Source: Lachnospiraceae bacterium V9D3004 (GTDB lineage Bacteria; Bacillota; Clostridia; Lachnospirales; Lachnospiraceae). From it: DNA of 64,000 nucleotides. Under the pieces are notes generated by a model. The model saw only the letters and a program-made list of their open reading frames with translations. It was not told where the DNA came from and did no database searches. Below are positions 8,592 to 61,086 of this stretch, one piece after another. The stretch lies in the NCBI GenBank assembly GCA_000621985.1, contig KK211381.1, positions 158,706 through 222,705 on the forward strand. The letters are read 5' to 3'. The position numbers and the translations under genes were made by a program. Every line of letters begins with the position of its first letter. Position 1 is the stretch's first letter.

Positions 8592-8634
8592 TATAATGAT
8601 AGGGATAGTCACAATACATTATGGAGGAAATGCA

Positions 8635-9300
8635 ATGAATCCAAAAGATATGCAGCCGGAACACAAAGTGTCCGTGTTAGTTAATAAACTGGATTTTAAT
8701 TCGGAGATACGCGTTATAAGAGACGAGTATCTGCTTATTGACCTCATTGTTGTAAATGAGAAGATTGTTAATTTCCCTAAGAATGTCAGTGTCAGTATTG
8801 TGTATTTTGATGAAGGTGAAAAGCTTTATGTCTGGAATGATGTGCAGATTGTTCCGGTCAAATTCAAGGATGGTAACAGATATCACAAGATAAGCATGCC
8901 TATTGAAGAGGGCAAAAAATATAACAGAAGAAGACATTTCAGATTGTATGTCGGCGAAGAGATGAGAGTTGATCTTATGAAAGGTATGGAAAAATTATCG
9001 ATCATGCCTATCATAAAGGATGTCAGTGCTTCGGGATTCTGTTTTATATATCAGGAAGATCTTGATATAGGCCACAGGGTTAAGCTGTTTTTTGAATCTG
9101 AAGAAGAAAAGAAACCTATCGAGTTCAGCGGTAAAGTAGTCAGGATTCAGCATAATGAGAATCTGAATTCCAATATGTACGGCTGCAGTATATTTGATCC
9201 GGCAGGTACTCTTGGAAAGATGATCAATGCAATACAGCAAAAGAAATTAAGCGAAAAGAGCGGGAGTGTAAAAGACAGGAACAAAGACAGGGATAGCTAG
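8635..9300 (+). CDS. PilZ-domain c-di-GMP binding protein (YcgR-like)
   Basis: Predicted cytoplasmic c-di-GMP effector of 221 residues. The N-terminal half resembles the YcgR N-terminal beta domain. The PilZ domain begins with RRRHFRL, which supplies the RxxxR motif, and continues with DVSASG, the D/NxSxxG motif, so both halves of the ligand site are intact. An in-frame ATG at 8596 exists, but GGAGG at 8623-8627 sits 7 bases before the ATG at 8635, so that start was chosen. No flagellar genes are nearby, so the target is unknown. It could receive signal from the GGDEF and EAL proteins elsewhere in the window. Confidence 0.85.
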   Translation: MNPKDMQPEHKVSVLVNKLDFNSEIRVIRDEYLLIDLIVVNEKIVNFPKNVSVSIVYFDEGEKLYVWNDVQIVPVKFKDGNRYHKISMPIEEGKKYNRRRHFRLYVGEEMRVDLMKGMEKLSIMPIIKDVSASGFCFIYQEDLDIGHRVKLFFESEEEKKPIEFSGKVVRIQHNENLNSNMYGCSIFDPAGTLGKMINAIQQKKLSEKSGSVKDRNKDRDS

Positions 9301-37276: not shown

Positions 37277-39376
37277 ATGAATAAAAAGAGTAAATTTAAC
37301 CGGGCCATTCACTGGGCGGAAAACCTGATCATCACACGGGCTATAAGAAACGGACTGGTTAATCTTATACCGATCCTGATTATTGGTGCATTTGCATTAA
37401 TACTCAAGACATTGCCAATTCCCGGATATGTCGGTTTTTTGGAGAATTTTGCGGGAGGAATGTTGTTATCGATATTTGATTTTGTGTTTACTGCAACTTT
37501 CGGGGTTCTTTCCGTATATATGACAATATCTATCAGCAGGGCATATATGAGTCTTAAAGCAGATCTTAAGGCTACGGATATAGGTGCTGTTATCGCATCT
37601 TTGGTATGTTTTTTCATGCTTGCGGGCGTATATCTTCCTGACTTCAAATATGACTTTATCGGTCCCAAATCCATGTTTCTTGCATTGATCACCGGTTTGG
37701 GCGCTTCTTCAATGTATCTTTCATTTCACCGATTCTTCAGAAAAAGAACGAAACATCTGTATTCTGCCGGTGCAGACAAGGAATTCAACCATACGCTTGG
37801 TACAATTTTGCCAATTACATGTGTTGTTTTAATATTTGCAGGAATTAATACAATTATTATGTATGTTTTTGAGGTGGATTCGTTCCGCATGTTCCTCGCA
37901 ATGATATTCAATAATCTGTTTTCACTTGGTGAGACCGGATTTATTAAAGGATTCTTCTTTGTTCTTTTGTCTTCGATACTCTGGTTTTTCGGTATTCATG
38001 GAAGCGATACGCTTGAGAATGTCATGGAGACATATTTTACACCGGGAATTCAGGAGAATATCGCCATGGTTGCGGGAGGAAATGAACCAACCAATATTCT
38101 GACGAAACAGTTCTTTGACTGCTTTGTACTTATGGGTGGCTGCGGTGCAACGATTTGTCTTTTGATCACGATATTGATCTTTTCACGTAATCATGCCAGA
38201 AGAAGTCTGGGAATTGCTGCCGCATTTCCAATGATATTCAATATAAATGAGCTGATGGTATTCGGGCTTCCGATCATATTTAATCCGATCATGCTCATAC
38301 CGTTCATTACCGTTCCGCTTGTAAGTTATTCCGTGGCATATATTGCAACGGTATCCGGTCTTGTTCCCATGATAACCAGCGATATTGTGTGGACTACGCC
38401 TATATTTATCGGAGGATATCAGGCAACCGGTTCGATCGCGGGAAGTATTCTTCAGCTTGTTAATGTAGTTATCGGAGTTCTTATATATCTGCCATTTGTT
38501 AAGATGCTTGATAAGGAATCTGAGGAAAACAGCCGCAGTGAATATAATTATTTTATGGAATATTTTAAGAATAATGAGCAGGGACTTATTAATGTCAGAC
38601 TGACCGAACAGAAGAATATGTACGGTGAATTTGCAAAAGGATTGTGTTCTGAGATAAGGCATGGTATGAAGAAGAATATGGTGATCGCATATCAGCCTCA
38701 ATATAATTATGACGGTTCATGTATCGGAGTTGAAGCGCTTCTTAGGTGGAAGCATCCGCTTCATGGAATTATATATCCGCCTCTTGTTGTAAAGATGGCC
38801 GAAGAAGGCGGATTCCTTGCCGAACTTGAGGAAACCGTTCTTGATATTGCATTAAAAGACAGAGACGCCATACTTGTTAGCTTCGGAGAGAATATCAAAA
38901 TGTCGATCAATGTCACCGGCACTACCATTGTGACGCCAAGATTTGCGGAATACTGCAAGTTCATTGATTCACAGTCGCCTTTTAAAGGTAAGAATATATG
39001 CTTTGAAGTAACTGAACAGACTGCAATAACATTTAATGAAGAAACGATCGATATTCTGAAGACTTTCAGAAAGATAGGTATTATTCTTGCGATCGACGAT
39101 TTCTCGATGGGTCAGACTTCGTTGAATTATCTTAAAAATAATCTGTTTGATATCATTAAGCTTGATGGTTCTCTTATAAACGGACTGTTTGATTTTAATA
39201 ACAGCAGGGAGATCATTTCTTCCATAACACAGCTTGCCGACAATCTTAACCTTACTGTTCTTTCGGAATATGTTGAAACCGAAGAACAACGGGCTGTGCT
39301 TCATGAGATAGGATGTGACAATTATCAGGGTTATCTGTTCTCACCTGCGGTATATCTGAACGAGGAAGGGGATTAA
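37277..39376 (+). CDS. PTS EIIC permease domain fused to EAL phosphodiesterase
   Basis: A 699-residue fusion. Residues 1 to about 415 are a polytopic PTS EIIC of the lactose/cellobiose type, with WFFGIHGSDTLENV and FNINELMVFGLPIIFNP, the conserved sugar-binding segments. Residues about 455-690 are an EAL domain with VEALLRW (about 484), the Asn in SINVTG, the Glu in EVTEQT, IDDFS, IKLDGS and the Glu in SEYVETEEQ, so it looks catalytically competent. No EIIA or EIIB is nearby. A sugar-responsive c-di-GMP phosphodiesterase is the likely role (inference). CAGGGGG precedes the ATG. Confidence 0.88.
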   Translation: MNKKSKFNRAIHWAENLIITRAIRNGLVNLIPILIIGAFALILKTLPIPGYVGFLENFAGGMLLSIFDFVFTATFGVLSVYMTISISRAYMSLKADLKATDIGAVIASLVCFFMLAGVYLPDFKYDFIGPKSMFLALITGLGASSMYLSFHRFFRKRTKHLYSAGADKEFNHTLGTILPITCVVLIFAGINTIIMYVFEVDSFRMFLAMIFNNLFSLGETGFIKGFFFVLLSSILWFFGIHGSDTLENVMETYFTPGIQENIAMVAGGNEPTNILTKQFFDCFVLMGGCGATICLLITILIFSRNHARRSLGIAAAFPMIFNINELMVFGLPIIFNPIMLIPFITVPLVSYSVAYIATVSGLVPMITSDIVWTTPIFIGGYQATGSIAGSILQLVNVVIGVLIYLPFVKMLDKESEENSRSEYNYFMEYFKNNEQGLINVRLTEQKNMYGEFAKGLCSEIRHGMKKNMVIAYQPQYNYDGSCIGVEALLRWKHPLHGIIYPPLVVKMAEEGGFLAELEETVLDIALKDRDAILVSFGENIKMSINVTGTTIVTPRFAEYCKFIDSQSPFKGKNICFEVTEQTAITFNEETIDILKTFRKIGIILAIDDFSMGQTSLNYLKNNLFDIIKLDGSLINGLFDFNNSREIISSITQLADNLNLTVLSEYVETEEQRAVLHEIGCDNYQGYLFSPAVYLNEEGD

Positions 39377-57216: not shown

Positions 57217-57391
57217 AGTGTAGTGTTAATTTTCAAAAATCACATTAACTGTTCAAACACCATTTATAATAATATGTATTAATGACTGACAGACCGCTTT
57301 TTTCGAAAGAAAAACTAATTATGTCATGGGGACAGACAAGATGTGAAGTGTATAGGATGTTGACTTATCAATCTCAGGGAGGAGTTAATAT

Positions 57392-60028
57392 ATGTCTGTA
57401 GTTGGGGGAAGAACTGTAACGGAAGGGCTTGTATACACAAACGAAAAATGTATCGGCTGCAACAAGTGTATCCGCGCGTGCAGTTGTATCGGCGCATGTA
57501 TATCCACTGATCCGGATGAAAACGGGGTTTCAAGGATTGAAGTGGATGGCAGTCTTTGTGTGGGCTGCGGGGCATGCTTTGATGTGTGTGAGCATGAAGC
57601 ACGTGTGTTTCGTGATGATACGGAACGTTTCTTTGAAGATCTTAAGAAAGGTGAGAAGATATCGCTTCTTATCGCACCTGCATTCCCTGCCAACTATCCG
57701 GATCAGTATGAACAGATACTCGGAGGACTTAAAAGACTCGGTGTCAACCGTATGATCAGTGTGTCTTTCGGAGCTGACATTACAACATGGGGATATATTA
57801 ATTATATTAAGGATCATGATTTTACAGGCGGTATTTCACAGCCATGTCCGGCTGTTGTAGGCTATATTGAAAGATATCTTCCCGAATTGCTCCCTAAGCT
57901 TTTTCCTGTCCAAAGTCCCCTTATGTGCGCTGCCATATATGCGAGAAAAGAGCTTGGGATTACAGACAGACTGGCATTTATAAGTCCATGTATTGCAAAA
58001 AAACTTGAGATAGATGACCCCAACAATCATGGTTATATTAATTATAATGTCACTTTTGATCATTTGATAAGATATGTAAAAGAGAATGATATATACGGTG
58101 AACCATGTAAAGATGAGATAGAATACGGTCTCGGTTCTATCTATCCGATGCCCGGCGGTTTAAAGGAGAATGTAGTTTGGCTTCTCGGAAATGATGTGTT
58201 CATTCGTCAGGTTGAAGGCGAGAAGAGATTGTATCATTTTCTTGAAAAAAACAGCAAAAGGATAGATGACGGTATGACTCCGTATCTTTTTATTGATGCA
58301 CTTAATTGTGAGAACGGATGCATATGCGGTACCGCTACGGAACTTGCAAAGTCAGCTACCGATGATGCTTTGTATCATATGTTTGATATTAAAGAAAATG
58401 TAATGAAGGATTCGACGGGAAGTCCGTGGTCCAAAGATGCATCGCCGGAAGAAAGACTTGAAAGCCTTAACAGACAGTTCGCGAATCTTAAGCTTGAAGA
58501 TTATCTTCGTGAATATACAGATCTTTCGGGTCAGTGTAACATGAAGATCCCTAATGAAAAGCAGCTTGATAAGATATTCAGGGATATGAACAAGAAGGAT
58601 GAAGAGTCTCGTCATATCAACTGTTCCTGTTGCGGATATGATACTTGTAAGGATATGGCGATCGCAATATACAATAAGATCAATCATAAGGATAATTGTA
58701 TTCATTATTTAAAAGACATGGTCGCACAAAAAGCTGCAGAGACCGACTACATGACGGGACTTCCGAATGCTGCAGGTTTCCGCATGTATGTAAAACAGCT
58801 TCAAAAAGAAGGCATACTGACGAATTACAACACATTTTATCTTAACCTGAAGAATTTTGGGCTGTTAAACCGCAGATACGGAAAACGTGCTGCGGACAAG
58901 ATACTTCTTCAATATGCTGCATACTGGAGTGAATTTATCGATTCGGATGAATTCGTGGGAAGACCGACAGGCGATAATTTCATTATTATGCTGCATAAGG
59001 AAAAAACCGAAGAACTGTTAAAATTGCTTGATGGAATCGAAACCCGTATTGTAGTTAACAGACAGAATATAACAGTGATGGTTCAGGCTGTTGCCGGCTG
59101 TATGGATATTGACGATCCCACACTTGACAGTGAGACAATACTCGGAAGATGTTCGACGGCTCTTAATGTAGCTAAACATGAATCAAGAACTCCTTACGTG
59201 TTCTCAACCATCGAGCTTCATGAACAGGTGATCCGTCAGAAACAGCTCCTTGAGATATTCCCGCAGGCTCTTCTTGACGGTGAATTCAGACCATATTACC
59301 AGCCGAAAGTCAATACCGAGACCAATACGCTTATAGGTGCTGAGGCTCTTGTAAGATGGGTAAGAGACGGGAAAGTTGTATCTCCGGGTGAATTCATTCC
59401 GATACTTGAGTCCGACAACAGTATATGCAAACTGGATTTCTATATATTCGAGAGAGTATGTAAGGACATCAGACAATGGATAGATGACGGTATCTCACCT
59501 GTAAGGATATCATCGAATTTTTCGAGAAAGAATCTGGCTATGCCCGATTTTTCCGACAGGATCAATGAGATAATCGAAAGATTCGACATACCGAAAGAAT
59601 ATATTGAGATAGAACTCACCGAAACGATGAATGAAGCCGAAGACGAGAATCTGAGCAGATTTATTAAAGATATGCATGATGCAAGGATAGTAATGGCTAT
59701 AGACGATTTCGGAACAGGATATTCATCGCTTAATATGCTCCGTGATTTTCCTGCGGATGTATTAAAACTGGACAAATCATTTATTGACAAACACACCAAC
59801 ACCGAACGTGACAGTGTTGTTGTTGCCAATATTGCCAAGATGGCAAAAGAACTCAATATGAGTGTTATCACGGAGGGTGTTGAAAATCGTGAACAGGTTG
59901 ATTTCTTAAAAGGTGTTGACATAAAATATGTACAGGGTTATTTGTATGACAGGCCGATGTCAAAGGATGATTTTGAGCAAAGGCTGATCAATAAATTATA
60001 TAAAGAACAGGAGGATCATATATCATGA
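57392..60028 (+). CDS. [FeFe]-hydrogenase-like sensor fused to GGDEF/EAL domains
   Basis: An 878-residue cytoplasmic protein. Two [4Fe-4S] ferredoxin motifs come first (CIGCNKCIRAC at 20-30; CVGCGACFDVC near 56-66). The hydrogenase-like domain has all three H-cluster motifs in the divergent form of sensory hydrogenases: SQPCPAVV near 149, SPCIAKK near 198 and NCENGCICG near 305. An FeS motif CSCCGYDTC lies near 410. A degenerate GGDEF domain (GRPTGDNF near 524) precedes an EAL domain with intact EALVRW, ELTETM, IDDFGTGYS, LKLDKSF and EGVENREQ. It likely adjusts c-di-GMP breakdown to hydrogen or redox state. GGGAGGAG precedes the ATG. Confidence 0.88.
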   Translation: MSVVGGRTVTEGLVYTNEKCIGCNKCIRACSCIGACISTDPDENGVSRIEVDGSLCVGCGACFDVCEHEARVFRDDTERFFEDLKKGEKISLLIAPAFPANYPDQYEQILGGLKRLGVNRMISVSFGADITTWGYINYIKDHDFTGGISQPCPAVVGYIERYLPELLPKLFPVQSPLMCAAIYARKELGITDRLAFISPCIAKKLEIDDPNNHGYINYNVTFDHLIRYVKENDIYGEPCKDEIEYGLGSIYPMPGGLKENVVWLLGNDVFIRQVEGEKRLYHFLEKNSKRIDDGMTPYLFIDALNCENGCICGTATELAKSATDDALYHMFDIKENVMKDSTGSPWSKDASPEERLESLNRQFANLKLEDYLREYTDLSGQCNMKIPNEKQLDKIFRDMNKKDEESRHINCSCCGYDTCKDMAIAIYNKINHKDNCIHYLKDMVAQKAAETDYMTGLPNAAGFRMYVKQLQKEGILTNYNTFYLNLKNFGLLNRRYGKRAADKILLQYAAYWSEFIDSDEFVGRPTGDNFIIMLHKEKTEELLKLLDGIETRIVVNRQNITVMVQAVAGCMDIDDPTLDSETILGRCSTALNVAKHESRTPYVFSTIELHEQVIRQKQLLEIFPQALLDGEFRPYYQPKVNTETNTLIGAEALVRWVRDGKVVSPGEFIPILESDNSICKLDFYIFERVCKDIRQWIDDGISPVRISSNFSRKNLAMPDFSDRINEIIERFDIPKEYIEIELTETMNEAEDENLSRFIKDMHDARIVMAIDDFGTGYSSLNMLRDFPADVLKLDKSFIDKHTNTERDSVVVANIAKMAKELNMSVITEGVENREQVDFLKGVDIKYVQGYLYDRPMSKDDFEQRLINKLYKEQEDHIS

Positions 60029-61086
60029 TAATGACATTTCGCTGGTATGGCGAAGGAAATGACAGCGTAACACTCGATCAGATCAAACAGATTCCCGGTG
60101 TTGAAGGGATAGTATGGGCACTTCACAACAAGATGCCCGGAGAGGTGTGGGAAAAAGAGGAGATCGCTGAAGTAAAAAAGCAGCTTGACGAATACGGCTT
60201 TAATATGGATGTTGTCGAGTCGGTGAATGTACATGATGACATTAAGACCGGTGCACCCACCCGTGATAAATATATTGAAAATTATATTCAGACTATCCGT
60301 AATCTTAAGGAATTCGGTGTAAAAGTAATATGTTATAATTTCATGCCGGTATTCGACTGGACAAGGACAGATCTGTTCCACCCGGTAGGAGACGGTTCAA
60401 CGGCACTGTATTACGAAAAGGATAAGATCATTGATGATCCCGAAGAAATGGCAGCTTATATTCTTGAGAAATGCGAAGGATACACGATGCCCGGCTGGGA
60501 GCCTGAAAGAATGGCGAAGCTTAAAGAGTTATTTGCCATGTACAGTGATGTTACAAAAGAAAAGTTATGGGAGAATCTCAAATATTTTCTGGAAGCGATC
60601 ATGCCTGTATGTCATGAGTGCGATATTAAGATGGCGATCCATTCGGATGATCCGCCGTGGGATATATTCGGACTTCCGAGACTTCTCGTAGATGAAGAAT
60701 CTGTTGATCATTTTCTGAAACTGGTTGATGATCCTTATAACTGTCTCACATTATGTTCGGGTTCACTTGGCAGCAATCCGAAGAACAATGTTGCTGATAT
60801 CGTTAGAAAACATTGTGACAGGATCGCATTTGCCCATGTACGTAATGTTAAGCATTTTCCGAACGGAGACTTCAGTGAGGCTTCACATCGTGACTGCGAT
60901 GGTGATATAGGAATACTTGATATTATGAAAGCTTATCATGACAATGGCTTTAAGGGATATATGAGACCGGATCACGGAAGACATATATGGGGCGAAAAAT
61001 GCAGACCGGGTTACGGTTTGTACGACAGAGCGCTCGGTATAATGTATCTTCTCGGTTGTTGGGATATGCTTGATCACATTTCATGA
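60025..61086 (+). CDS. uxuA: Mannonate dehydratase
   Basis: Dehydrates D-mannonate to 2-keto-3-deoxygluconate in the glucuronate branch of pectin and xylan side-chain use. In 353 residues the TIM barrel carries MTFRWYGEGNDSV at the N-terminus, CYNFMPVFDWTRT, AIHSDDPPW, CSGSLGSNP and FAHVRNVK, the metal- and substrate-binding segments of the family. The ATG overlaps the EAL gene stop (ATGA), with AGGAGG upstream, so it is cotranscribed with that sensor. No other uxu gene is in the window. Confidence 0.96.
   Translation: MIMTFRWYGEGNDSVTLDQIKQIPGVEGIVWALHNKMPGEVWEKEEIAEVKKQLDEYGFNMDVVESVNVHDDIKTGAPTRDKYIENYIQTIRNLKEFGVKVICYNFMPVFDWTRTDLFHPVGDGSTALYYEKDKIIDDPEEMAAYILEKCEGYTMPGWEPERMAKLKELFAMYSDVTKEKLWENLKYFLEAIMPVCHECDIKMAIHSDDPPWDIFGLPRLLVDEESVDHFLKLVDDPYNCLTLCSGSLGSNPKNNVADIVRKHCDRIAFAHVRNVKHFPNGDFSEASHRDCDGDIGILDIMKAYHDNGFKGYMRPDHGRHIWGEKCRPGYGLYDRALGIMYLLGCWDMLDHIS

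Follow-up and report, generated by a model that had tools for sequence, protein, structure and literature searches.

Does a protein that joins an [FeFe]-hydrogenase module to a c-di-GMP phosphodiesterase read the hydrogen or redox state of its cell? Hydrogen perception by fermenting gut bacteria is still unproved, and a 2022 review, in the excerpt available, describes the sensory role of HydS proteins as putative because it lacks physiological support (PMC8924675). The question is raised by one open reading frame with an ATG start in the window, by which we mean the whole 64,000-nucleotide stretch of DNA analysed here (Table 1).

Architecture and predicted activity of the fusion protein

A first, sequence-only reading of this frame had proposed two ferredoxin clusters, H-cluster motifs, an extra FeS motif, a degenerate GGDEF and an EAL domain, and Pfam matches and motif reading agree on this layout. 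Pfam scores were 33.5 bits for Fer4, 105.5 bits for Fe_hyd_lg_C (E 4.5e-30; cut-off 22.1), 57.9 bits for GGDEF and 201.4 bits for EAL (E 1.9e-59). The FeS match at residues 409-437 reached 22.5 bits, slightly under its cut-off of 23, and an exact Cx2Cx4Cx16C motif is present within it. In an AlphaFold2 model, the predicted fold matches hydrogenases and EAL enzymes by structure comparison, and a helix runs unbroken from the last FeS cysteine into the GGDEF domain; with a pTM of 0.63, the relative placement of the domains in this model is unsure. A prediction of the sensor part alone, made without an alignment, gave a pLDDT of 33.9 and was discarded.

Table 1. Features of the fusion gene and its immediate surroundings (window coordinates)
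Feature	Position	Strand	Description or basis
Shine-Dalgarno GGGAGGAG	57377..57384	+	Direct reading; AGGAG at 57380-57384
Fusion gene	57392..60028	+	878 aa; two ferredoxin motifs, hydrogenase H-domain, FeS, degenerate GGDEF, EAL
Two [4Fe-4S] motifs, residues 20-30 and 56-66	57449..57589	+	Sequence reading
[FeFe]-hydrogenase H-domain, residues 90-313	57659..58330	+	Pfam
L1 SQPCPA, C152	57836..57853	+	Sequence reading, profile alignment
L2 PCIAKKLE, C200	57986..58009	+	Sequence reading, profile alignment
L3 CENGC, C306 and C310	58307..58321	+	Sequence reading, profile alignment
C-terminal cluster motif Cx2Cx4Cx16C, residues 411-436	58622..58699	+	Sequence reading
Predicted continuous helix, residues 437-455	58700..58756	+	AlphaFold2 model; last FeS cysteine to GGDEF
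Degenerate GGDEF (TGDNF), residues 449-599	58736..59188	+	Pfam, motif
EAL domain, residues 623-855	59258..59956	+	Pfam, catalytic residues
uxuA (mannonate dehydratase)	60025..61086	+	4-bp overlap with fusion-gene stop; local neighbour only

The GGDEF domain reads TGDNF and departs from the GG[DE]EF signature of diguanylate cyclases, which was found in none of the seven nearest relatives of the fusion protein; among all 26 EAL fusions described below, three carry GGDEY (L109, L122, L131). The EAL domain holds E651, N709, E741, E744, D771, D772, K792, E828 and Q848 (ENEEDDKEQ), which we take, after RocR, to be the complete catalytic set, and this assignment is consistent with the solved EAL enzymes aligned here. 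The same set is kept in 25/26 EAL fusions and lost in L143. With a complete EAL set beside a degenerate GGDEF, c-di-GMP hydrolysis rather than synthesis is therefore expected. Judged from its residues, the protein is very probably a regulated c-di-GMP phosphodiesterase; that it is regulated, and that the signal is H2 or redox state, we infer. The opposite c-di-GMP output may occur elsewhere: at L171 (1411-3246, +), a related hydrogenase-like sensor is joined to GGDEF alone, which has the sequence WGGDEF, and EAL is absent.

Recurrence of the fusion and other outputs of the module

A search for the same domain order elsewhere found the hydrogenase module followed by EAL in 25 other loci, so the fusion is not a chance event. 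The frames are of 857-902 aa in 23 of the 25 and of 1153 and 1196 aa in the other two, and a seed search recovered the GGDEF part in 17 of the 26 EAL fusions. The fusion architecture is real and recurrent.

A profile scan of named genomes returned at least 578 stretches with a relative, the best 80 of which were taken further; the classified loci are these 80 together with 30 others, all of them top hits of a profile with the window protein at its head, four loci of the window's own genome, with the window, and 20 picked by frame length. By seed-based classification, 142 matching ORFs comprised 83 fusions to a chemoreceptor output (MCP), 26 to EAL, 23 to a kinase and 10 without an output (mostly reference hydrogenases, one truncated), counts that reflect how the loci were chosen, with duplicates kept, and are not population frequencies. 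Among ten longer relatives from the phylum that were scanned, seven had a sigma-54 activator as their end, one HATPase-CheX, one a PAS kinase and one GGDEF.

The window genome itself has five Fe_hyd_lg_C genes: one group B1 hydrogenase (TIGR04105, 624.9 bits) and four sensor modules, whose outputs are GGDEF-EAL (the window gene), MCP (L007) and two HisKA-HATPase-receiver-Hpt kinases (L008, L009). It also has 14 EAL and 2 PilZ matches. Downstream of the chemoreceptor-type module, L007 1444-4828 (-) encodes a PAS kinase, a receiver-HD protein and CheR, possibly a dedicated chemosensory operon. Each kinase-type module is immediately preceded by a receiver-domain protein of 252-267 aa (L008 4057-4860, +; L009 9146-9904, -), and another in this size range (L006 10431-11207, -) is separated from the group B1 hydrogenase by about 3 kb.

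Conservation of the cluster ligands

The three Cys motifs align with the H-cluster motifs of solved [FeFe]-hydrogenases in profile A1, which consists of the four sensor modules of the window genome; conservation and the predicted fold agree with the profile alignment that these cysteines correspond to H-cluster ligands, as the sensor idea supposes. The ferredoxin motifs read CIGCNKCIRAC and CVGCGACFDVC, and all eight of their cysteines are kept in 25/26 EAL fusions. The four H-cluster cysteines are complete in 25/26 EAL fusions (L134 lacks one), 82/83 MCP and 22/23 kinase fusions, the exceptions in the last two classes (L044, L151) being incomplete rows, and the four cysteines of the C-terminal cluster are present in all 132 fusions of the three classes. 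In L2, K203 and E206 correspond to K358 and E361 of CpI, pocket residues of the diiron site.

The hydrogenase part might be a vestige or scaffold, with the EAL domain constitutive or controlled by expression or by GTP at the degenerate GGDEF. The pocket is indeed changed in some distant EAL fusions (L133, L134, L135, L143), for example in L134 with CCSC, K358M and E361F. We nevertheless consider this reading very improbable: the ligands are near-invariant across EAL, MCP and kinase fusions, 14 of the 16 cluster cysteines are invariant among 60 aligned proteins with C26 and C306 at least 90% conserved, and output domains unrelated to one another carry the same module. The direct fusion proposed in the earlier reading is supported: the hydrogenase-derived module has every H-cluster ligand, a degenerate GGDEF follows it, and the EAL phosphodiesterase after that is probably active.

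Relation to known sensory hydrogenases

Proline (P151) replaces C299, the proton-relay cysteine of CpI, and serine and leucine replace M353 and M497 (CpI numbering after the excerpt of PMC8163306). The proline recurs in 21/26 EAL, 82/83 MCP and 21/23 kinase fusions. Group C sensory [FeFe]-hydrogenases such as TmHydS, as excerpts of PMC8163306 and PMC5037454 describe them, share with the fusion protein the two ferredoxin clusters, the H-domain, the Cx2Cx4Cx16C motif and the loss of the relay cysteine, which in TmHydS is replaced by alanine rather than proline (PMC10407848, excerpt). Unlike group C, the fusion protein has a c-di-GMP phosphodiesterase output and lacks PAS: a Pfam scan found no PAS domain up to E = 1, and helix 437-455 leads directly into GGDEF. 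In having the FeS motif and no PAS it shows group D features. The group D protein TamHydS (M2e) likewise has no PAS and has serine and leucine at the M353 and M497 positions (PMC8163306, excerpt), but it differs in having alanine at the relay position (PMC10407848, excerpt) and no fused output.

A quick tree of 88 rows separated the 79 that are sensors from the references, which belong to group A, group B and the PAS-type HydS-like kind (SH-aLRT 100), a split at which long branches meet. When phylum members were included in another quick tree, a clade of 67 rows (99) brought the module rows together with some of the sigma-54 and CheX relatives, likewise apart from the same three kinds of reference; several longer phylum relatives fell outside the main clade, and in this tree L173, L175, L176, L178, L181 and L186 were labelled by likeness rather than by a scan. 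In these trees, built without TmHydS and TamHydS, the fusion module groups separately from the three PAS-HydS-like rows sampled, and the sole row that is M2e-like by architecture (L146_444) sits on a long branch apart from it. The likeness to HydS put forward in the earlier reading is partial: the cysteine layout agrees, but PAS is absent and the module does not group with the PAS-type rows sampled.

Origin of the EAL fusion

The EAL fusions formed two groups in the 88-row tree, and three changes of output were needed in the second tree and in a 60-row tree; the starred branches alone, however, force only one change in the 60-row tree and two in the 88-row tree. A single origin was rejected (AU p 0.006; 0/200 bootstrap trees) in a test on 60 rows with 22 of the 26 EAL fusions, from which the long-branched L133, L134, L140 and L143 and the reference L146_444 had been dropped and in which MCP rows were thinned to 16/30 and kinase rows to 14/23. 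The tree grouping and the AU test both speak against one clade, so that repeated gain, or exchange, of the EAL output is probable.

Maturases and the nature of the signal

The window genome has HydE (567 bits), HydF (542) and HydG (924), all above cut-off, and a complete H-cluster is therefore possible in this host. Among 80 family genomes picked for strong module matches, a census confined to sensor-bearing genomes, HydG was above cut-off in 37 and HydF in 43 (with a partial HydF also in G395). All 37 HydG genomes also had HydF, and neither protein was found in 36 of the 80 (for example G357, G206 and G290; loci L222, L224, L225). In another, partly overlapping set of 19 genomes, HydG was found in 12. 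In the 36, the known route of H-cluster assembly would therefore be expected to fail, and because the module persists there H2 is no more than a candidate signal. Assembly gaps are unlikely as a general cause, since the listed completeness is 90% or more for 31 of these genomes.

Does a hydrogenase fold then sense without a diiron site, or is there another maturation route? In the first case the four cysteines would hold only a [4Fe-4S] cluster, as in Nar1, a hydrogenase-like protein of eukaryotes, and the protein would read ferredoxin potential, not H2. The proline at the relay position fits such a sensor, as does the absence of HydF and HydG from so many sensor-bearing genomes. The best Fe_hyd_lg_C match was weaker than 1e-40 in six of the 36 (G355, G233, G277, G344, G255, G249), and no hydrogenase of group A/B strength was seen in these six, four of which are at least 98% complete. 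In G233, G344 and G255 (99-100% complete), the single Fe_hyd_lg_C match is the sensor module, in which K358 and E361 as well as the four cysteines are intact. Against a diiron-free sensor, however, K358 and E361 are kept in 14/14 chemoreceptor modules of genomes lacking HydF and HydG, the genes for HydF and HydG frequently lie side by side, where a single assembly gap could remove both from view, and the window genome has all three maturases. Moreover, group-B-size enzymes persist in the lacking genomes, where all 15 ORFs read, classed by size and motif and not by profile, keep TSCCP, GPC and CPGGC; another maturation route is therefore possible, which weakens the absence of HydF and HydG as proof of a diiron-free sensor. 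On this evidence we regard a diiron-free site in the fusion protein as unlikely, yet deserving of serious attention.

Group-A-size ORFs, classed in the same way, had TSCCP in 4/10 and TSCSP in 6/10 cases in genomes lacking HydF and HydG, and 12/20 and 8/20 in the others. Across these 30 ORFs (L192-L221), TSCSP, with serine at an H-cluster ligand position, occurs in 14 and TSCCP in 16.

A nine-residue pocket consensus was kept in genomes lacking HydF and HydG by 14/14 MCP, 3/4 kinase (the fourth truncated) and 1/5 EAL modules, and where both genes are present by 11/12 MCP (one truncated), 4/7 kinase and 4/5 EAL modules. Pocket change as a correlate of maturase absence in EAL fusions (deviating in 4/5 against 1/5) was set aside, the proteins being too few and too related; one of the four deviating fusions, L140, departs only at the relay position. 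Modules in genomes without detected HydF and HydG may have either another maturation route or plain iron-sulfur redox sensing, or else the absence is overcounted. A broader proposal is that the former hydrogenase is a general anaerobic redox sensor that Bacillota plug into outputs as varied as chemotaxis, kinases, c-di-GMP and sigma-54, and that in many hosts it lacks a diiron site made by HydF and HydG and reads ferredoxin potential or another cofactor, not H2; we advance it tentatively and think it somewhat doubtful.

Proposed mechanism and parallels

The reading we favour, and consider reasonably probable from the sequence and the model, is that an iron-sulfur input module derived from a hydrogenase controls the output of a c-di-GMP phosphodiesterase. 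Its basis is that the sequence and predicted fold show ligands for both ferredoxin clusters, for an H-cluster-type site and for the C-terminal cluster. In the window host, which has maturases, H2 or electrons would change the state of the H-cluster site, which the ferredoxin clusters would equilibrate with cellular ferredoxin. The C-terminal cluster may relay the change along helix 437-455 to GGDEF and EAL, where a shift in EAL activity or in dimer state would alter local c-di-GMP, with either sign of response. Given the proline at the relay position, a slow, non-metabolic site suited to sensing is to be expected. Because sensor and enzyme lie on one polypeptide, c-di-GMP hydrolysis would be a direct read-out of the hydrogenase-like site, and since the genome has four modules (one on EAL, one on a chemoreceptor and two on hybrid kinases), chemotaxis, phosphorelay and c-di-GMP level could all answer to the same signal. 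Counting against this mechanism are the 36 sensor-bearing genomes in which neither HydF nor HydG was found, although 14/14 chemoreceptor-type modules read there keep the pocket whole, the changed pockets of distant EAL fusions, the loss of EAL residues in L143 and the modest pTM. A retired hydrogenase in a gut-type anaerobe probably senses hydrogen or redox state.

DosP is an oxygen-sensing phosphodiesterase with a heme PAS input. It resembles the fusion protein over residues 448-860 (E 2.9e-41) and likewise has a cofactor sensor feeding GGDEF-EAL, but the heme PAS takes the place of the hydrogenase module. As a sensor the module is of a known kind; what is new is its c-di-GMP phosphodiesterase output. 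In the excerpt of HydDB available, group C comprises kinase-linked C1, chemotactic C2 and phosphatase-linked C3, all putative, and a diguanylate-cyclase link is given only for [NiFe] group 2c (PMC5037454). The latter shares a proposed H2 input to c-di-GMP signalling; it differs in being an unrelated enzyme class with the opposite output, synthesis, and is itself listed as putative (PMC5037454). EAL/GGDEF proteins have been tabulated as neighbours of [NiFe]-hydrogenase genes (PMC12727194, excerpt). In the open-access literature, among the matches listed and in the excerpts they offer, no [FeFe] module fused to EAL or GGDEF is described.

Gene neighbourhood

The overlap with uxuA (PF03786, 518 bits; own Shine-Dalgarno AGGAGG) had been read as a link to sugar-acid catabolism. 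When six neighbouring window proteins were compared by tblastn with the 25 other EAL-fusion loci, uxuA was absent from the examined flanks of all 25 (some under 1 kb on one side), and the one match was a weak glycoside-hydrolase match with 27% identity. The coupling was accordingly rejected as a functional link beyond the window genome. In five of eight divergent EAL fusions (L132, L133, L134, L135, L143), a same-strand protein of 370-376 aa, grouped by BLAST clustering, lies directly upstream; the four scanned of the five have FIST, and some of these loci have changed H-cluster pockets. Within the window, a 699-aa protein at 37277-39376 (+) joins a PTS EIIC sugar-permease domain to EAL, another unusual c-di-GMP input, and a 234-aa PilZ-domain protein at 8596-9300 (+), one of the two PilZ matches of the genome, is a possible c-di-GMP effector.
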